DNA of 24,917 bases. It comes from Parvularia atlantis (lineage: Eukaryota; Opisthokonta; Rotosphaerida). This document shows positions 790-24,917 of this stretch, one piece after another (the stretch's first letter is position 1; every line of letters begins with the position of its first letter). The notes under the pieces are model-generated. The model saw only the letters and a program-made list of their open reading frames with translations, ran no database searches and was not told the origin of the DNA. The DNA is taken from the NCBI GenBank assembly GCA_943704415.1, contig CALSCO010001580.1, forward strand, positions 1-24,917, in the 5' to 3' direction. Both the position numbers and the translations under genes were made by a program.

Positions 790-3700
790 TCACACCGGCT
801 TGTACGACATCAGCAGCACCAGCTCGCCCGCGCGGTTGCTGCCCATGCTGCCGCCGCCGCGTCTGTGAGCGCGGGACCCGACCAGCCCTGCGCGTTCGGC
901 ACGCACGTGAGCGGCAGCGTGCAGTTCTGCGTCGACGAGAACTCGAAGATGTCGAGGTTGAACGTCGCCGTGCCCATAAAGTCCTCGGTCGAGAACTGCG
1001 GCGGGTGAGTCGCGCGCCCCAGCGTCGCGCGCGCGCCCTGCACCTCGTCGTAGTCGTACACGTCAAACTTGAGCGGCACACTCAGCGTCGACACTGAGAA
1101 CAGAAGCGACTGGTTCCACTTGGGGTTGAGGGTCTTGCGGATGATCTTCGTCTTCTGGAGCTGCGCGCACGGGCGTCGGACAGCGGCTCGACGAGCCGGC
1201 GCGCCGCGCGCACCTGGTGCTCCAGTTGCACCACGCAGAACGGGTCCGACTTGCCGTTGGCGTCCATCGGCAGCAGGTTGCGCCCCTCGACCACCGTCAC
1301 TTGCAGCGTGCCGATGTAGCTGCCCGCCGTCTTCTTGCTCGTGCGCGTCGCGTTCTTCTTGTTGAGCACGTTCTGCGGCCCCCCCCCCCCCCTGCGTTAG
1401 GCCTGCGCGGCGAGTGCAGCGCCTGCGCGTGCACCGTGTACGCCGTGAACGTCGTCTCCAGCAGCTGGATCCACTTGCGCTTCTCGGCGAGCGTCTCGGC
1501 GCGCACGTGGATCTTGTCCTTGGTCTGCGCCACCGTCGACCGGCCGGTCAGAAAGCGAGCCAGACACAGTGCGCAGCGACGTGCCTCCGAGTTGATGATC
1601 ACGAACGACAGGTCGCTACCCGGGTTGTCCGCCGCGACGACCAGGTTCATCGGCATCGGCGGCCGGTACAGCGACAGCGTGCTCGAGATGCCGCTCGGCA
1701 CGCACAGCAGCAGCAGGTCGTTGAGCAACACCACGTGCAGCTTCTTGCCCGACTTTTCCTGCGCCCCATCCGTGTCAGCGCGCGCCAGGGCAACGCGCCG
1801 CAGCGGCATGCCTTGAGCAGCGTGCCCTCGTGTATAAACTGCCGTCGGCCTAGCACGCGCGTCTCGCCGTCCAGCACCAGCGGCTCCTCCAGCTTGTCCA
1901 GCTCGATCAGCCTGCGTGCATGCACGCCGGTCAGCGGTGCAGGCACGCGTGCGCACAGGCCGCACTTTTGCAGGCGCTGCAGGTTCTGCGAGTCGTCGAA
2001 CCGCCGCGCGGCCTCGTTTGTGCGCCGCGTCCTGGCACGCCGTGCGCGCGGTCAACAGCGGCCTCACGCCCCGCGCAAACGAAGCGTGCACCAGTCCTCG
2101 GCCATGCCGAGCGCGCGCAGCGTGTCTGCGTGGTCTGGGTGGTCCTTGACCGTGTGGTGGACGATCGTGCGGATGAGCAGCGGGTATCTGGTGCGCCACA
2201 CAGCGTCAGCAGGCCCGCACGCAAGCCGCCCCGGACGCCTCGCACCGCGTCATGCGCTGCATGGGCTCGAGCAAGAACGACGACAAGTCGAGGCCGTTGA
2301 GGGCGCGGAACTCGGCGCGCTCGCACTGCACCTGGCGGGCACACGGGCGTGAGCCTCCGCACGTGTGCGTACGCAGAACACGGACCGTCACAAAGTGCGC
2401 AAACACGGGGTCCTTGAGCTTGCTCGTGATCGTCTGGATGGCCAGCATGTGGTTGCCGCAGTAGGTCAGGTACGGCTCGAGGTTGACCAGCTGCTGCACG
2501 AGCACGTCGCCGATGCGCTCGACAAAGTACCCGCTTTGCACCTGCCGCTGCTCCAGCGCCGCCAGGATGCGCCGGTTGACCTCGACCAGCTGCGGCACGT
2601 TGGCAAAGATCTGCTGGTGCTCCTGCGGCGTCAGGCGCGACCGCATCGGCTCGTAGAAGACCTGCAAGCGCGCCTCTCAGCCGCCTGCCGCGCGAGGCCG
2701 GTCGCACGTGCCCACCTCCATAATCACAGCCAGCTTCTTGACGTAGATCTGCTCGGTCTGAATCAGCTCAAAGATGCTCTCCTGCCGCTTGCGCTCGTCC
2801 TGCAACGCGGCTCAGCGACGCGGCGAGCCGCACGCGCCGTCTCGCGCACAGCCGAAATTTGCCGGAGCCGGGCGCCGTCGACGTGCGCAACCCACGCGTC
2901 CTGTATCGCACGGCCCGCGGCTGGCACCCCGAGGTCCTCCTCCTCGATCGACATGCGGTCGAAGCGCGAGCGGCCGTGCGGCCGGCTCGGTGGTGGGGGC
3001 ACTGCGCAGCGGGGGGCGTTTAGCACGCGCTTGCGTGGCAGAAAGATGCGCACGCACCCGGCGGCGGACGCGCAACAGCGGGCGGCCGCACTGCCGTGTT
3101 GCGCCGTGCGAGCGCAGCAGGGGAAGGGGTGACCACCGGCGGAGGCCGGCCGCCGCCTGCGCTGCCCTGTCAGCCGCGTGGCGTCTGCAAGAGCCGCACC
3201 CGCGCTCACCCAGCGATGCCGTGCTCCCCGCCATGTGCGGCTTCGCGGCCAGTGGCGGTGGCGCGTGGTACGCGACCGGCTTGGGCTTGGGCTCGACCAG
3301 CGGCGGCAGCAGCTCGAGGTACGTCGACGGGACGACGCCTGGGCACGCCCATGCACCGTCAAAGCTCAGCACCGCTGCCGGCGACCCGCACACCGCTCGT
3401 GCTGGAGCCATCCACCTGTGCCGTCCACCAGCCGTCGTCCGACTGGCTCAGGACGACCTGCAGCGCGGCCGCACGTGAGACACACGCACGCGCGCCACAT
3501 GTTGGCGGCCGCACCAGGACTTGGCCGGGCGCGATCGTCAGCTCGTCGCCACGCTGCGCGGTGTACGCATACAGGACCTTGGCCAGGACGCGCGGCGCCT
3601 CCTTACTCGCCACGCTTGCGTCGGACGTCGTGCGCATCGAGCCATCGCTCAGGGCCTTGACCGCGGCGTGCACCACGACCGCCTTCAGCTCCTCAACGTA

Positions 3701-6555
3701 CGTGCGCGGGAACACGCCTGCGCGACGTGCTTCCATTAGCGCCCCGCGCCCCGCGCCCCGCGCCCCGCGCGCGGACGGACGGCGCACCACGCCGAGAGGG
3801 GTTGGTTACAAGGTAGCCGCGCCACCAGTCGTTGTCCTCCTTGTGCTCAACGACGACCTGCAACGCGAGCGCGGCTGTCAGACCGCGGCACAATTGCACG
3901 TCTGGCACGCACCTCGTCGTCCGCGCGCAGACTGAGCTCGTCAGGCTGGTTGGCCGTGTAGTCGTACAGCGCTGCGCAACGGACACACAAGCGTAAGCGT
4001 GTGCGCGGCGGCTCGGGCAGCGGCGCACCTCGGGCCATGACCAGCGCGGCCGCCTGGCGTGCCAGCTGTATGCGCGACCCGTGCTGGTGAGACGTCGGGA
4101 GAGCATGACTAGCGCGCAGCACACCTCTTCCTCGGCGCGGCGCTCCTCCTCCTCGCGCTGGCGTCGTTCCTCCTCGCGCTGGTTGTGCTCCTCCTCACGC
4201 TGACGGCGCTCCTCCTCCTCGCGCTGGCGTCGTTCCTCCTCGCGTTGACGGCGCTCCTCCTCGGCCTTCTTTCGCTTGGCCTCGAGCTCGGCCTTCTTGC
4301 GCGCTTCCTCCTCGGCCTTCTTGCGCGCTTCCTCCTCGGCCTTCTTGCGGGCGTCTTCCTCGGCCTTCTTGCGGGCGTCTTCCTCGGCCTTCTTGCGGGC
4401 GTCTTCCTCAGCCTTCTTGCGCCTCGCCTCCTCCTCGGCCTTGCGCTTGGCCTCGGCCTCACGCTGCCGCGCTGCCTCCTCCTCGACCTTGCGCTTGGCC
4501 TCGGCCACACGCTGCTGCGCTGCCTCCTCCTCGGCCTTCTTGCGGGCGTCTTCCTCAGCCTTCTTGCGCCTCGCCTCCTCCTCGGCCTTGCGCTTGGCCT
4601 CGGCCACACGCTGCTGCGCTGCCTCCTCCTCGGCCTCAGCTCTGCGCTTGGCGTCCTCGTCAGCCTTGCGCTTGGCCTCCTCCTGCCGGGCCGCCTCGGC
4701 CTCGGCCCGCTGCCGCGCCGCCTCCGCCTCGGCTCGCTGGCGTGCCTCTTCAGCCTCGCGCTGCCGTGCCTCTTCTTCCTCGCGCTGCCTCGCTTCAGCC
4801 TCTTCGCGCTGCCGTGCCGCCTCAGCCTCGCGATGTTTCGCCTCGGCCTCGCGCTGCGCCACAGCGTCGTCACCGTTCTCCTCCGTCGGCGATGCCTGGA
4901 TGACGTCGAGCGACCCAGCTCGCTTGAGAGCCAGTGCCGCCATTCTGCCGCGACGCGTTTAGCGCGAGCGCCCGGGGGACGAAGAAGACACACCTCTTTT
5001 GCAGCATCAGGCGCGCCTTGGCCTTGAGGCGTTCCTCGTCGCTCAGTCCATCGAGACTTGCATGCGCACCTGGGGGCGGCGAAGACGATACGGAGCGGCG
5101 CTCGGGCACGGGCGGGAGCATGTTGGGCATGCTGGGCGATGCCCGCAGCGGCACGGGTGGCGCGGGCGGACGCGTCCGTCCGAACGGGCTCGCGGGCGAC
5201 TCGGAGCGCGGCGGCGGCAGCGGCGGCGGCGTCGTGATGATCGGGGTGGGCGGTGCACGCGGCTTGTCGAGTGAGGCCTTGAGCGCGGTGGTGAGCTGCG
5301 AGATTTCCTGCTCGAGGTGCGTGCGGCGCTGCAGAGCCGCATCGATCGCGCTGCGCTGTTCCGTCAGGCGCTCGCTCAGCATGGCGCGGTGCTTGGCGGC
5401 CACCGCGAGCGCCATCATCAGGCTCGACACGACCGCCTCAGAGGCCGACTGGATGGTCGCGGCGGTGTTGGCAGCCGTCTGGGCGTCGTCGCGCCGCCGC
5501 TCCGACGCCGCGCGCTGGCGCTGCAGATCGCTGAGCTTCTTCTGCAGCTCCTGGGCTGCCGTGCTTGGCGCTGCCGTGTTGGCTGTGGTCGTGCTTGCGG
5601 TCATGCTCACTGCGGTCTTCTCCACGGGCTGGGCAGCCACGGGCGGCGGCGAGATGGCCAGCTCGGGCGGCAGCACCGACGGGAGCTCCTGCCCGGCCAG
5701 CTTGCCGACGATTAGGTGCATGCCGACGGCAAACTGCTCAAGTGTGAGCTTGCCCTGCCGGCCCGGGTTGATCAGCTGCCTGTGGGCGCGGCCGTGAGCA
5801 CGGGCGGCGCGTTCGGTGCGACAGCGCACATAACGCGGTCCAGCGCGGCGGGCGGCAGGCGCGACTTTGCAAACATCTGCTCGACCTGGTCGACTGCGCG
5901 CGCGCGCGTTGGGCGGCGTCAGCCGGGCCGGAGGGAGGGCGACGAGGACGGCGCACGTGACGCAGTGCCGGTGCGGGCGGGGTCGAGTGCGGCGAACGAG
6001 GCCTGGTACTTTGCGTGGTCGGCGGTGGCGATGCGCGTCCACTGCTGCTGCTGCTGCGAGCGGGCGGCGGTGGCGACCGAGGCGACGGCGAGCGGTGCGG
6101 CCGGGCCGTGGAGGACCTCGCTCTGGACGGCGGGCGGGAGGCGGTCGGGCACAGTCTTGCCCTTGAGCACGCTGTCGACTAGGAACATGGCCAGGGCGAA
6201 CTCACGCAGGTTGAGGCGGCCGTCCTTGTCCTGGTCTGCGAGTTCCCTGTGTGCGTGTGTGTGTGTGGCTGAGAACAAGGCCACGAGCACCACCACGCCC
6301 GCACGAGCACCACCACGAGCACCGCCACGAGCACCACCACGAGCCACGAGGAACGCACCAGATGCGCCCGAGCACAAACTTGGGCAGGTTCGACTTGAGC
6401 AGCGCCCCGCGCGCCTTCTCGCCGGTGATGTGGTCGCCCGTGCCCGTGCCCAGGCCCTCGAACTGCGCCGTGTACCGCGCCAGGTCGCCCGCGGCGACAA
6501 ACGACGCGCCGCCGGGGCCGAACCCGCCGTGCTCGACGCCGCGTGTCCCGCTCAT
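790..6555 (-). CDS. CIN1: Intersectin/Cin1-like endocytic scaffold with RhoGEF module
   Basis: This is a multidomain adaptor linking clathrin endocytosis to Rho-GTPase and actin control. In order along the protein: EH1 (about 6530-6170; canonical calcium loop DQDKDGRLNLRE), EH2 (about 6040-5690), a coiled coil (about 5560-5270), a proline-rich linker (about 5260-5070), a very charged E/K/R/A coiled coil (about 4940-4110), SH3-1 (ALYDYTANQPDELSL, EDNDWWRGYL, GVFPRTYVEEL; about 3985-3690), SH3-2 (VLYAYTAQRGDELTI, DDGWWTAQVDG, VPSTYLELL; about 3610-3310), DH (about 2810-1950), PH (about 1890-1435) and C2 (about 1290-790, ending GELVLLMSYKPV). The gene has many short introns; well-placed ones include 848-906, 996-1043, 1161-1213 and 1373-1434. 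Animal intersectins have five SH3 domains; this has two, as I recall for Cryptococcus Cin1. I chose the ATG at 6555 because the EH1 domain follows it within about 25 residues. It diverges from the kinase gene. Family assignment is strong; exact exon ends between the SH3 and DH domains are uncertain. Confidence 0.88.
1379..1392. repeat. Homopolymer run of 14 C inside an intersectin intron
   Basis: Fourteen consecutive C (G on the coding strand) lie inside the intron 1373-1434, between the PH and C2 coding exons and near its 3' splice site. Such a run is prone to length variation and sequencing error, but being intronic it does not affect the reading frame. Confidence 0.9.
4262..4640 (-). repeat. 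Tandem repeat encoding the charged coiled coil of intersectin
   Basis: On the coding strand this is a set of near-identical 24- and 33-nt units giving EEDARKKA and EEEARKKA type repeats. They alternate with blocks reading AKRKAEEEA, and longer duplicated blocks recur (compare 4420-4520 with 4560-4620). The repeat lengthens the coiled coil linking the EH half to the SH3 half. Unit number is likely to vary between strains. The same bases on the plus strand read as long leucine/alanine-rich open frames, which are shadows. Confidence 0.8.
6282..6350. repeat. Short tandem repeat in an intersectin intron
   Basis: About five imperfect copies of a 12-nt unit reading CACGAGCACCAC are found here, with variants GCC and CGC. 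They lie within the intron that splits EH1 (between the segment ending KFVLG and the one starting RELADQDKDG). A GT dinucleotide run at about 6253-6268 adjoins it. There is no sign of a coding role. Confidence 0.7.
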
Positions 6556-6744
6556 CGGAGGGCCTGCGTCACACTGCCAATCCTGGTGTTTGGTGACTCG
6601 TAACACCGCGCGTTTCAGCCTTGTGCGGACGACGTCTCGTTCTTGTGCCGCCGCGTCCTTTGCTGTGCGCCTCACACACGCCTCACACACGCCTCACACA
6701 CGCCGCTCACACACGTCGCGCACCTGCCTCTCAGCCCAGCAGCA
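6556..6744. promoter_or_regulatory. Divergent intergenic region, intersectin / AKT-like kinase
   Basis: These 189 bp separate the two start codons and must hold the 5' leaders and promoters of both genes. At 6670-6716 there are three perfect copies and one imperfect copy of an 11-bp unit, CCTCACACACG, on the kinase side. Just upstream of each ATG is a 3' splice-site-like motif: GTGACGCAG about 10 nt before the intersectin ATG (minus strand) and CAGCCCAGCAG just before the kinase ATG. This suggests, without proving, 5' UTR introns. No TATA box is seen. Confidence 0.6.
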
Positions 6745-12021
<5,277 letters not shown>

Positions 12022-20227: not shown

Positions 20228-22747
20228 ATGTTCAGCAGCAAGAAGCCCGCGCCCGACCCCAAGGTCGTGCGCTCGGTCATCGACGGGCTCAAGAACATCT
20301 ACGCCAACAAAGTGCGGCCCGTCGAGGAGACGTGCGTGGGCCGTGGGGCCGCGTCGCCGCGCCGCCGCGGTCGGCCGGGCTGAGTGGGTGCCGCGCGCAC
20401 GCAGCTACCACTTTGCCGACTTCTACTCGCCGCTACTGCGCGGTGCGGGCGGGCGCGGGTAGGGCCGTGGCCGCAGTGCTGACGTGCGCGCGGCGCGCAG
20501 ACTCGGACTTTGACGCCAAGGCACGCGCTATAAGGGGGAGGGGCGCGCCGTGCCTGACACCCGCCCGCACGCGCCGCACGCGCAGCCGATGGTCCTGTTG
20601 CTCGGGCAGTACAGCACAGGTGCGCCCGCCGCCCTGCACGTGCGCGCGTCGCCCGCTCACGCCGCGCTCGCGCACCCCGCGCAGGCAAAGCACGTGCGCC
20701 CCGTTGCAGCGCGCCCGCCCGCTGACCCGCCGTGTGTGTGTGCGCGCGCGCAGACCACGTTCATCACGTACCTGCTCGAGCGCAACTTCCCCGGTGCGGC
20801 GACGGCGACGACGACGGCGACGCGCCGCACTGCTGACGGCGCCCGCGGGCCCCCAGGCGCGCACATCGGCCCCGAGCCCACGACCGACCGCTTCATCGCG
20901 ATCATGTACAACAAGGAGGAGCGCGTCACGCCCGGCAACGGTGCGGCGGCGCCGTCCACAAGACGTGCGCCTCAACGCGCGCACACTCGCAGCCCTCGCC
21001 GTCCAGGCCGACAAGCCCTTCCGCGGCCTGGAGATGTTTGGCACGGCGTTCCTGAGCAAGTTCCAGAGCTCCGAGCTGCCCGCGCCCCTGCTCGAGGATC
21101 TCATCTTCATCGACACACCAGGTGTGCTCTCGGGCGAGAAGCAGCGCATCGGCCGCGCGTACGACTTCATCAAGGTGTGCCGGCTGCCGTCCTTGCTCGC
21201 AACCGCCGGCTGATGCACGCGCGCGCTGTGCCGCGTCGCCAGGTCATCCAGTGGTTCTCCGAGCGGTCCGACATGATCCTGCTGCTGTTTGACGCGTACA
21301 AGCTCGACATCTCGGACGAGTTCCGCATGGCGATCGAGACGCTCAAGGTGTGCGCTCGCCGCCTGCCACCCGGCGCGCTGCTCACACGTCGGCACGCGCG
21401 CAGGGCCAGGACGACAAAGTCCGCCTCGTGCTGAACAAGGCCGACCTCGTCAACAGCCAGCAGCTCATGCGCGTGTACGGCGCGCTCATGTGGTCACTCG
21501 GCAAGGTCATCAAGACGCCCGAGGTCATGCGCGTCTACATCGGCTCCTTCTGGAACGAGCCGTACCAGAACAAGGAGAACGAGAACCTGTTCCGGGTGCG
21601 CTCGCGCGCACACTGCACGCACGGGCGCGCCTGCTGATGGGGGGGAGACGACGGCGCACATGTGCAGGCGGAGCAAGCCGATCTGCTGCGCGACCTGCGC
21701 AACATGCCCGCCAACGCGACCATCCGCAAGGTCAACGAGCTGGTCAAGCGCGCGCGCCTGGCCAAGGTCCACGCGTACATCGTCTCGTACCTGAAGAACC
21801 AGATGCCGACCATGTTTGGCCACAAGTCCAAGCAGGACGAGCTGCTGAAGACGCTGCCGCAGGTGTTTGAGACCGTATCGCGGCAGTACAACCTGCCGAT
21901 GGTGCGCGCCCCGGACGCCCTCGCGCTCAGCCGCGCGCTGCTGAGCCTCCCCGGCCGCACAGGGCGACTTCCCCGAAGTGCAGCGCTTCCGGGACAATTG
22001 CGGCCGCTTTGAGTTCTCGAAGCACTTTGTCAAGCTCAACCAGAAGGTGATGCGCGGGGCTGGAAGGGGCGCTTGCTGACGGCTGCGCGTGACGGCCAGA
22101 TGATCGAGTCGATGGACACGGTGCTGTCGAAGGACCTGCCCGACCTGATGCAGCGCTTTCCGCAGGACAAGCCCAAGGCGCACATGCTCGAGGGCGTGCA
22201 GAACTGTGCGCGGGGAGGGGCGGCGGCGCGCGGGCCGAGTTGCTGAAGACGCGCTTGCCGTCGCAGCCAAGGGCGGCGGCAGCAGCAGCACGGCCGCCGC
22301 AGCAGCAGGCGGCGTGCCGGACGAGGACGCGTACGCGATGACAGAGGCTGCGCGGGACAAGTACAAGCGCCAGTTCCAGGAGCTCGCGGCCGGGGAGGAG
22401 TTTCTGTCGGCCGACGTGGTGCGCTGCCCAGGGAGACCTGCACGGACGCGCGGGCTGATCGGGCGCAGGCGAGGGGCGAGCTGGTCAAGTCCAACCTGGA
22501 GAAGGACATCCTCAAGCGGATCTGGTTCCTGTCGGACATCGACAAGGACGGCAAGCTCGACGTGGACGAGTACGTCCTGGCGATGCACCTGGCCAAGGTC
22601 TGTGCTGCGCGCGACGCATGAAGGGAGGGGGGAGGGGCCTCACGCGCGCCCCGTGCCGTGGCGCAGCTGTGCATGAAGGGCACACCGCTGCCGCACCAGC
22701 TGCCCACGTCGCTCATGCCCGTGTCCAAGATCAACTCGCCGTTCTGA
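20228..22747 (+). CDS. EHD-family dynamin-like ATPase (C-terminal EH domain)
   Basis: This is a membrane-remodelling ATPase of endocytic recycling. The protein starts [20 protein letters not shown], then [30 protein letters not shown] (Walker A), [29 protein letters not shown], then [20 protein letters not shown] (Walker B/switch II) and [10 protein letters not shown] (guanine/adenine-specificity NKAD). A long helical part follows ([38 protein letters not shown]). The C-terminal EH domain has a canonical calcium loop, [12 protein letters not shown], and the protein ends PVSKINSPF. At least ten introns are needed. Two in a row around the P-loop use GC donors and leave a 5-nt microexon at 20685-20689. 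All family landmarks are present in order, so the gene looks intact. It converges on ubiquilin, with 162 bp between stops. Confidence 0.92.
20685..20689 (+). other. Inferred 5-nt microexon carrying the EHD Walker A lysine
   Basis: The exon before ends AGC ACA G (S-T-G...) at 20620 and the exon after starts ACC ACG TTC (T-T-F) at 20754. Joined directly they are out of frame and lack the invariant GK. Within the gap, GCAAA at 20685-20689 is preceded by GCGCAG and followed by GCACGT, a GC-type donor also seen elsewhere in this window. Inserting it restores S-T-G-K-T-T-F exactly. This is inference from family conservation. Confidence 0.75.
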
Positions 22748-22909
22748 GCGGCGTCGCGGGACTATCCGGTGTCATGTGTCCTTGTCGTGAGCGGTCGATC
22801 GCGCACGGCAGAACGTGCACGGCGCAATGTGCACGGCGCGCCCAAGTCGTGCACAGTACGCGCTCGGAGACACAACAAAGACAAAGACCGCTCTCGCTCT
22901 ATGCCCCCA

Positions 22910-24184
22910 TCAGCGCGGCTGCGTCAGCAGGCTGCGGCAGCGGCGCGTCAGGGTCAGGACAAGCCGGCCGCGCGTCGGCCGGGCGTGGCGCGCACCGCTC
23001 GATCGCCACATTGACGTTGCCGCCCGCAGCCAGCAGCGCGTTGATGTTCTCGGTCGGGTCGTAGAAGCCCATCTCCTGCAGCTGCTGCAGCTGCACCTGG
23101 AAGCGCACCTCGGGCGGCGGCAGGTTGGCGGCGGCGGCGGCGGGCGGCGCGCTGAGGCCGGCCAGGAGCTGCGCAAGGCCCGCGGCACCGGCCGGGTTGG
23201 GCGCGCCGGGAGCGAAGCCCGGGAGGGTCGGTGCGGTCGCGGTGGTGGCGCCGGGCGCGGCGAGCCCCTGGGCGGCCTGCATCTGCCCAAGCAGGGCCTG
23301 CATCTGCATCATCATCTGCAGGTTCTGAGGGTTCATCATCTGGCGGACGTTGTTGGGGTCGGAGAGCATCTGGCGCATCTCGGGCGTGACCATGCCCTGT
23401 ACGCGTGTGCGTGTGCGTGGTGTCGGCCCGGGCGCGGGCACGCGCGCGCAAAGGCGGCAACGCACCTGCATGCTCGGGTTGGACGCGAGCATCATGTCGA
23501 CAAACTGCGGGTCGGCCATCATCTGCGTCATGGCCTGCTGCATCAGCGGGTTCTGCATCATCTGCAGTACCGTCTGCATGTCCATCCCGCCAGGCAGCAC
23601 CCCGTCGGGCAGCCTGCCGAGGCCCGCGAACGGGTTGGCCGTACCCTGTGGCGGCTGCGGCGCCGTCGGCATCGGCGCCGTCGGCATCGGCGACCTAAAC
23701 AGGCCCGCGAACGGGTTGGCCGGCTGCGCGGCCGCGGGCGTCGCGCCGGGCGCGGCGGTGGCCGGGGCGGCGGCCGGGGCGGGCGCGCCCTGGGCCTCGG
23801 CGGCGGCGGCGGCGGCGGCAGGGCGGGTCGGCGTGTTGGTCCGGACCTGCGTCGTGTGTCAGCAGCGTGCAGCAGCGTGTAGCAGCAGCAGCAGACCGCG
23901 CCACGCACCATGTGTACCGTGTGGCCGTCCTTCACGCCGTACACCGCCCCGAGCGCGTCGCCGTCCTTGAGCACGCGCCCGCTGAAGATCAGCCGCTGCT
24001 GGTCGGCCGGCGTCGCGTTGGGTGACGCCGCGATGGCCTCCTTGAGCTGCAGCACCGTCGCCGCGTCTGTCGCGCGCCGCTTGGTCAGGCCATGCGCGCA
24101 GTGGCGGCAGCGACGAGACGCGACGGCACCGTCCACCGTCACGTCAAACTTGGTGTCGTTGAACGCCTTGATCGAGACCTTCAT
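22910..24184 (-). CDS. DSK2: Ubiquilin (UBL-STI1-UBA proteasome shuttle)
   Basis: This is a shuttle factor that carries ubiquitinated proteins to the proteasome. The N-terminal ubiquitin-like domain (MKVSIKAFNDTKFDVTVD, then ATVLQLKEAIAASPNATPAD, QQRLIFSGRVLKDGDALG) is followed by a Gly/Ala/Pro-rich linker with two NPFAGL motifs (about 23715 and 23635). Met/Gln-rich STI1-type repeats come next (MQTVLQMMQNPLMQQAMTQM, QMLSDPNNVRQMMNPQNLQM). The UBA domain is last (VQLQQLQEMGFYDPTENINA, LLAAGGNVNVAIER). The last intron runs to 22932 and leaves a 22-nt final exon, 22910-22931, that gives AIERLLTQPR and stop; read-through to 22899 is the alternative. The start at 24184 begins the UBL fold directly. 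A pyrimidine-rich tract lies upstream on its coding strand. Confidence 0.92.
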
Positions 24185-24270
24185 CGTTGTCGAGGTGCTT
24201 TGGCTGACGTGGACAAAGTGTCACTCAACCCGCGCGAACAGCAGACGACGCGAACGACGCGAACGACACG

Positions 24271-24341
24271 AAGGAACGAGGCGAGGGAAAGAAGCCTGAA
24301 AGAAAAGAAAAGAAAAGAAGGAAGAAAAAAAAGGAGAAGAC
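24271..24341. promoter_or_regulatory. Polypurine/polypyrimidine tract upstream of ubiquilin
   Basis: The plus strand is almost pure A/G for about 70 bp; on the ubiquilin coding strand this is a C/T-rich tract 87-157 nt before the ATG. Long CT tracts of this kind are common near fungal transcription starts. It also contains the T8 run that would end RNA polymerase III transcription of the tRNA. To its left (24240-24270) the unit CGAACGACG is repeated about three times. Confidence 0.5.
24325..24332 (-). terminator. RNA polymerase III T8 terminator of the permuted tRNA
   Basis: Eight T on the minus strand begin 13 nt after the last base of the tRNA 5' half (G37 at 24346). The position, downstream of the 5' half and not of the 3' half, is what a permuted gene order predicts. 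No comparable T run follows the 3' half inside the 10-nt spacer. Confidence 0.75.
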
Positions 24342-24345
24342 TCAA

Positions 24346-24427
24346 CCCGAACGGAGAATCATACCACTAGACCAAGCTCCCCAACGGGATGGGGGAGCTG
24401 CGGGAATCGAACCCGCGACCTCTCCGA
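24346..24427 (-). tRNA. Circularly permuted tRNA-Pro(CGG) gene
   Basis: In minus-strand order: the 3' half (24427-24392, tRNA positions 38-73), a 10-nt spacer (24391-24382), then the 5' half (24381-24346, positions 1-37). Put in the normal order they make a 72-nt tRNA. The acceptor stem GGGAGCT/AGCTCCC pairs 7 of 7, the anticodon stem CTCCG/CGGAG 5 of 5, and the T stem GCGGG/CCCGC 5 of 5 with loop TTCGATT. The D-arm TGGTCTAGTGGTATGATT is characteristic of eukaryotic tRNA-Pro. The anticodon loop TTCGGGT gives anticodon CGG, reading CCG, which should be a common codon in so GC-rich a genome. The discriminator base is C, as in other eukaryotic tRNA-Pro. No 5' half lies upstream of the 3' half, and no 3' half follows the 5' half, so this is not two normal genes. 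The B box precedes the A box. CCA is not fully encoded. Confidence 0.85.
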
Positions 24428-24429
24428 TG

Positions 24430-24795
24430 CTCGATCAGCCACATGAAGGATGCGCGACAAACGCCTATGAGCCGTGGCTTGGGCGGACTGCGCCGGGCTG
24501 AGGGCGGAAAACGTCCGTGCGTACTGCCCGCGCGGCCCCTGCTGCTGCCGCCGCTGCCATTGCGCCGTGAGCTGACTTGCCCGCCGCATCGCAGACAAGC
24601 GCAAGCTGAGCGCGCATCGGGGCAGAGCCAGCGACGGCCTTTGACGGTTGCTGACCCAGACGCGCGGCTACTGAGGAACCTGCTCGTCCGTTGAACCTCG
24701 ACGACTTCTCGAACGAGCCGTGCCGCGGCGCCCGCTTACTCGAAGCAGAGGTGTCGATGCGCCTGCCTTTTTAAACCTAAACTGAACTCCTTGTG
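24430..24795. other. Intergenic region upstream of the permuted tRNA, no gene recognised
   Basis: I find no conserved protein or RNA here. The first bases (24430-24450) are the leader of the permuted tRNA and can pair with its trailer. A plus-strand open frame across 24389-24694 runs through the tRNA antisense and has no recognisable content. A T5 run occurs at 24770-24774 on the plus strand. Composition becomes less GC-rich towards the right. Confidence 0.5.
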
Positions 24796-24917
24796 TTACT
24801 GTGGAGCCGAGTCGTCCTTGGTGGCACTTTTCTCCGGGCCCGAGGCAGCCTCAGGGGTTTCCCCCCGCATCACGAGCAGTGCTCGTGGTTCTTGAGATAA
24901 GCCAGGCCTGTTCCAGT
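24796..24917 (-). other. Hairpin-rich, less GC-biased segment; possible ncRNA or partial 3' exon
   Basis: On the minus strand several small hairpins follow one another: CACGAGC/GCTCGTG with a 3-nt loop (about 24875-24891), GGGG-GAAA-CCCC with a GNRA tetraloop, GAGG/CCTC, and CGGGCCCG. This could be a structured RNA. The same strand also has an open frame from the window edge to TAA at 24796-24798, containing LLVMRGETPEAASGPEK and ending KDDSAPQ, which could be the C-terminal end of a gene cut by the window. Its codons (TTA, TCT, CAA, GAA, CCA) are unlike the strongly G/C-ending codons of the other genes, which argues against coding. I cannot decide. Confidence 0.3.

Follow-up and report, generated by a model that had tools for sequence, protein, structure and literature searches.

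A probable circularly permuted tRNA-Pro(CGG) gene in a contig with opisthokont-type gene content

Introduction

Can a nuclear genome of the fungal or animal lineage encode a proline tRNA with its two halves in reverse order, and could such a gene be used? The question is raised by a DNA stretch of 24,917 nt (the window, i.e., the whole stretch that was analysed), on the minus strand of which the 3' half of a tRNA-Pro(CGG) precedes the 5' half. The 34 permuted tRNA genes reviewed in 2014 come from six algae and one archaeon, have spacers of 1-74 nt and include none for proline (PMC3978253); the nucleomorph of Amorphochlora (PMC4494063) and Auxenochlorella (PMC12633428) were added after that review. 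It is debated whether permuted genes are ancient traits retained in algae and archaea or recent and repeated inventions (PMC3978253). Here we describe the locus and weigh the explanations for it. We conclude that it is very probably a genuine nuclear gene that encodes tRNA-Pro(CGG) in circularly permuted order and belongs to type II, with its junction at 37/38.

Results and Discussion

Rejoining of the two halves

Dissection of the sequence places tRNA positions 38-73 (24427-24392) upstream of positions 1-37 (24381-24346) on the minus strand. Along the minus strand, the parts are:

24392..24427, minus strand: 3' half of tRNA-Pro (T38 to C73), consisting of CGGAG, the variable region AGGTC, the T arm GCGGG-TTCGATT-CCCGC, AGCTCCC and C73
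24403..24413, minus strand: B-box sequence GGTTCGATTCC, preceding the A box rather than following it
24382..24391, minus strand: 10-nt intervening sequence CATCCCGTTG between the acceptor strands
24346..24381, minus strand: 5' half of tRNA-Pro (G1 to G37), consisting of GGGAGCT, the D arm, CTCCG and the loop part TTCGGG with the anticodon CGG
24364..24374, minus strand: A-box sequence TGGTCTAGTGG, located after the B box

The rejoined halves form a sequence of 72 nt, GGGAGCTTGGTCTAGTGGTATGATTCTCCGTTCGGGTCGGAGAGGTCGCGGGTTCGATTCCCGCAGCTCCCC. Its acceptor (GGGAGCT/AGCTCCC), anticodon (CTCCG/CGGAG) and T (GCGGG/CCCGC) stems are fully paired (7/7, 5/5 and 5/5, respectively), and the D stem has three pairs, one of them G-U. 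Conserved residues of tRNAs are in place (U8, A14, the GG of the D loop, U33, TTCGA and C73), and ARAGORN identified the rearranged sequence as tRNA-Pro(cgg). The original prediction had described halves swapped on the minus strand, a separation of 10 nt and complete stems after swapping, and had proposed a tRNA finder as a check; its coordinates proved identical base for base, the spacer CATCCCGTTG lies at 24391-24382, and both the pairing and the outcome of the check agree with it. The 37/38 junction coincides exactly with the canonical splice site. The source of T38 is ambiguous, as the base following G37 could equally well supply it, both being T.

In its native order, the locus was not called as a tRNA by ARAGORN. 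The program found no ordinary tRNA in the window either, with introns disallowed or allowed, and no tRNA was present in the window at Rfam gathering thresholds. Four sub-threshold Rfam matches were obtained for 24200-24917, and the one that spans both halves (24328-24445, minus strand; 22.5 bits, E 0.032) is to YrlA (RF02553). The tRNA-mimic module of YrlA has the permuted order itself, and the locus might be imagined to encode a tRNA-like regulatory RNA, e.g., a Y-RNA-like (YrlA) molecule. However, the score is far under the gathering score of RF02553 (69 bits), and at the locus nothing is missing from the anticodon stem, from the 7-nt loop that carries a proline anticodon or from the possible splice motif. 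YrlA is a bacterial family. We regard a regulatory RNA of this kind as extremely improbable, and the permuted tRNA gene is the reading pursued below.

Flanking signals

The following elements flank the two halves:

24428..24440, minus strand: leader side of the possible splice motif, with pairing possible between GGCT (24440-24437) and the trailer's AGTC and between CGAG (24433-24430) and U32-G35 of the loop, and with a 3-nt bulge made up of CA and U38
24339..24345, minus strand: trailer TTGAGTC, immediately past G37, the AGTC of which (24342-24339) can pair with the leader
24325..24332, minus strand: T8 run, the presumed RNA polymerase III terminator, which begins 13 nt past the 5' half

The T8 run, which is preceded by the trailer sequence TTGAGTCTTCTCC after G37, is the longest T run on both strands of the window and the only one of at least seven; the next is T6. 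In an ordinary tRNA gene the terminator stands after the 3' half. Here T8 stands after the 5' half and the spacer CATCCCGTTG contains no T run, so that the transcription unit looks made for read-through in the permuted order. With 10 nt, the spacer is inside the known range of permuted genes (1-74 nt).

At 37/38, leader and trailer could adopt a relaxed bulge-helix-bulge (hBH) motif. Its central helix would be CGAG/UUCG (4 bp, one G-U), accompanied by a 3-nt bulge and by GGCU/AGUC as a loosely paired distal stem; no motif of the strict hBHBh' type was found at this junction. Relaxed hBH motifs at 37/38 have been described for green-algal permuted genes (PMC3978253). As 1571 of the 49828 4-mers on both strands of the window (3.2%) can pair as well as CGAG, the helix between leader and loop is modest evidence if taken alone.

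An upstream promoter signal was not recognised. There is no TATA-like or AT-rich element in the 100 nt upstream, which contain no A/T run of at least 5 and are 36% AT; the sole run of at least 5 within 400 nt upstream is TTTAAAAA, 348 nt away. Nor is there a second A box within 130 nt upstream at up to one mismatch to the consensus used, which at this tolerance occurs 2.5 times per kb per strand. An upstream TATA-like element is found at most genes of C. merolae and at some green-algal and nucleomorph ones, and it is not universal (PMC3978253).

The missing promoter signal and the position of the B box before the A box would suit a dead, unexpressed relic, i.e., a permuted copy that arose when a tandem duplicate lost its outer halves, or via reverse transcription of a circular RNA. 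However, not one of the 17 pairs in the three long stems is broken, and both the terminator-like run and the possible splice motif occur where a working gene would have them. Moreover, remnants of the outer halves were not detected in the 60-nt flanks: the comparison of the leader with the 5' half gave a score of 5, which 81% of the 1977 background segments also attained, and that of the trailer with the 3' half gave the same score, attained by 99% of background segments. A very recent duplication is therefore unlikely, and a relic of either origin appears improbable to us.

The locus is known from one contig, and fragments of ordinary tRNA-Pro genes could have been misjoined during assembly or amplification. 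Such a random join would hardly produce together the breakpoint exactly at 37/38, the 10-nt spacer, the T8 run past the 5' half and the pairing of leader and loop, and we consider an artefact very unlikely. The permuted tRNA-Pro(CGG) gene predicted originally is instead supported, since the cloverleaf obtained on rejoining, the 37/38 junction, the length of the spacer, the T8 run and the possible hBH motif all agree; the upstream TATA-like element is the feature that is missing.

Folding of the precursor

At its predicted energy minimum (-42.5 kcal/mol), the linear precursor is not folded as a cloverleaf and does not contain the hBH motif; with the cloverleaf enforced, the energy is -38.9 kcal/mol. 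The optimum differs from the cloverleaf because pairing of the leader with the 5' half is possible as well. The complementary segments are 24439-24429 in the leader and 24377-24366 at the start of the 5' half (minus strand), a pairing that competes with the cloverleaf. The stability of the precursor is ordinary (z -0.91; 32 of 200 shuffles fold as well or better). Relative to 300 mononucleotide shuffles each, the gain in stability is only moderate both for the mature sequence (-30.7 vs. -24.7, sd 3.2) and for the 82-nt circle (-27.6 vs. -24.3, sd 3.3).

Chance expectation

The window was scanned with strict rules for a permuted cloverleaf: a T arm, a 7/7 acceptor stem across a spacer of 1-75 nt, A-box features and a 5/5 anticodon stem, with G-U pairs allowed. 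These rules, which use generic tRNA features but were formulated after the locus was known, gave one match in the window; 400 first-order Markov shuffles yielded none. When no more than the T arm and the acceptor was required (the loosest level), these shuffles yielded 27 matches in total. A pattern of a T loop followed by an A box likewise occurred once in the window vs. zero times in 100 shuffles.

A cruder test, in which doubled 180-nt windows were given to ARAGORN and introns were permitted, was dropped as unspecific (shuffles with hits, 0 of 10 at first and 11 of 60 later) and replaced with the strict rules. All nine hits that it gave in the window under study came from doubled windows overlapping the permuted locus; they were labelled Ala(cgc) (seven), SeC(tca) (one) and Pro(cgg) (one), and in further trials with five window sizes every label was Ala(cgc). 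Exact-pattern scans for a permuted tRNA-Pro gave no match in viral contigs, whether the pattern was narrow or wider, this being a viral collection rather than one of eukaryotic genomes, and no match in prokaryote genome contigs, a collection not meant for eukaryotes.

Neighbouring genes and the host

Pfam was run on 30 of the 122 listed open reading frames (ORFs). Above cut-off were adaptin small-chain, RhoGEF, SH3, protein kinase, Tim17, RPAP2/Rtr1, DUF5600 (EHD), ubiquitin and UBA domains, as well as tRNA ligase anticodon-binding and class I tRNA synthetase domains, including the editing domain of leucyl-tRNA synthetase; DHHC and EH were below cut-off. We read the ORF with the adaptin small-chain domain as zeta-COP. 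The gene next to the tRNA locus is:

22899..24184, minus strand: gene with ubiquitin-like and UBA domains, the ATG of which follows the tRNA 5' half at a distance of 161 nt

This neighbour is probably ubiquilin/Dsk2-like. On the other side, an open frame on the minus strand (24870-24917) ends in TGTGLAYLKNHEHCS followed by a stop; read by eye, it is possibly the end of the upstream gene.

An EHD-like gene was spliced by hand into a model of 503 aa with 14 introns. The model comprises EHD_N, Dynamin_N, DUF5600 and a C-terminal EH domain, and over 488 residues it aligns with an EHD4 chain (E 1e-164). All 14 introns (20332-22468) are 50-73 nt long, 12 starting with GT and two with GC, and in every one CTNA precedes the 3' splice site by 14-37 nt. 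In this hand-made model, a 5-nt microexon GCAAA (20685-20689), with a GT-AG intron on one side and a GC-AG intron on the other, restores the conserved P-loop GQYSTGKTT.

An intersectin-like gene (1200-6690, minus strand) shows EH, SH3 and RhoGEF domains, a weak PH domain and pieces of C2. Its EH signal is a single domain split between neighbouring frames, the halves of which score 21.6 and 18.2 bits, each under the cut-off of 22, and inspection by eye makes us suspect a second EH domain. The intersectin of Cryptococcus has DH-PH, with homologues in other basidiomycetes, and this protein, Cin1, is described with one EH domain and no C2 (PMC3645719). On the plus strand, conserved-looking exons followed by a protein kinase domain extend over 6643-11700, perhaps as one long multi-domain gene.

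Dbl-type RhoGEFs are not known as a feature of plants or green algae, and branch-site-like CTNA motifs are frequent in fungi. The GC content is about 70%. From these sequence features we infer that the host is an opisthokont, probably a GC-rich fungus. A chytrid and a basidiomycete were both weighed as hosts, and neither was decisively favoured. The domain architectures and intron signals thus speak for the lineage suggested by the original prediction, which had called the neighbours fungal or otherwise opisthokont, and fall short of proving it.

Proposed maturation and its implications

The most likely reading is a permuted tRNA-Pro(CGG) gene that works via the known circular pathway, in which transcription, circularisation, processing of the ends and use in translation are inferred. 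RNA polymerase III would transcribe the leader, the 3' half, the spacer, the 5' half and the trailer as far as T8. Leader and trailer, the sequences of which permit pairing, would then meet at the anticodon stem and might form the relaxed hBH motif. Cleavage by the tRNA-splicing endonuclease after G37 and before U38, followed by the action of a ligase, would close a circle of 82 nt. In this circular precursor, CATCCCGTTG would bridge both acceptor strands until it is excised by RNase P and tRNase Z, and CCA addition would complete a proline tRNA decoding CCG. This codon accounts for 8 of the 25 proline codons in one hand-spliced gene model.

What is new about this tRNA-Pro case is its host lineage. 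We think it likely, though with less confidence than we have in the gene itself, that an opisthokont (probably a fungus) makes tRNA-Pro(CGG) through a circular RNA. It would be the first working case outside algae, nucleomorphs and Archaea, possibly one among several permuted genes in the genome, and its RNA polymerase III would use the order B before A. Permuted tRNA genes of fungi, animals or other opisthokonts were not among the matches listed in the open-access literature, outside of which most subscription journals stand and an unseen report is possible.

If true, a case in the fungal/animal lineage would favour repeated origins of permuted genes and suggest that ordinary eukaryotic splicing at 37/38 is enough. 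It would also raise the testable question of how RNA polymerase III starts on a gene with the B box before the A box; TFIIIC-independent transcription has been proposed for Cyanidioschyzon (PMC3978253). Furthermore, tRNA genes would be missed by standard finders in non-algal genomes too, and the maturation of tRNA through circular RNA may be commoner across lineages than supposed.

Comparison with known permuted tRNA genes

Type II is the commonest junction in green algae (PMC3978253), and the closest parallels are found in the type II genes of prasinophytes (Ostreococcus, Micromonas), in which the 3' half also comes first. In the 2014 review, 18 of these 19 genes have the junction at 37/38, with an hBH motif, 18 of 19 are free of introns, and their spacers are 11-64 nt long (PMC3978253). 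They serve Ser, Leu, Cys, Arg, Asn and iMet in photosynthetic cells, whereas the gene described here is for tRNA-Pro and stands among genes of opisthokont type. Cyanidioschyzon merolae shares with our locus the order of the halves, the T stretch past the 5' half and the absence of an encoded CCA, and the junction is at 37/38 in 6 of its 11 genes. Unlike the present gene, those of C. merolae have junctions at several positions and mostly a TATA-like element upstream, and Pro is represented in 0 of the 11 listed.

The nucleomorph tRNA-Ser genes of Bigelowiella natans and Amorphochlora have the permuted order as well, those of B. natans with the 37/38 junction and 5-nt spacers; they differ from our case in being for tRNA-Ser and in belonging to a green-algal relict nucleus. 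Thermofilum pendens likewise shows the permuted order, but its genes are archaeal, have the junction at 59/60, encode CCA and bear introns. Finally, the halves are reversed in Auxenochlorella, too, where the genes, reported in 2025, were found after tRNAscan-SE had returned an incomplete tRNA set (PMC12633428). Auxenochlorella is a green alga (PMC12633428), unlike the probable opisthokont host of the tRNA-Pro(CGG) gene described here.
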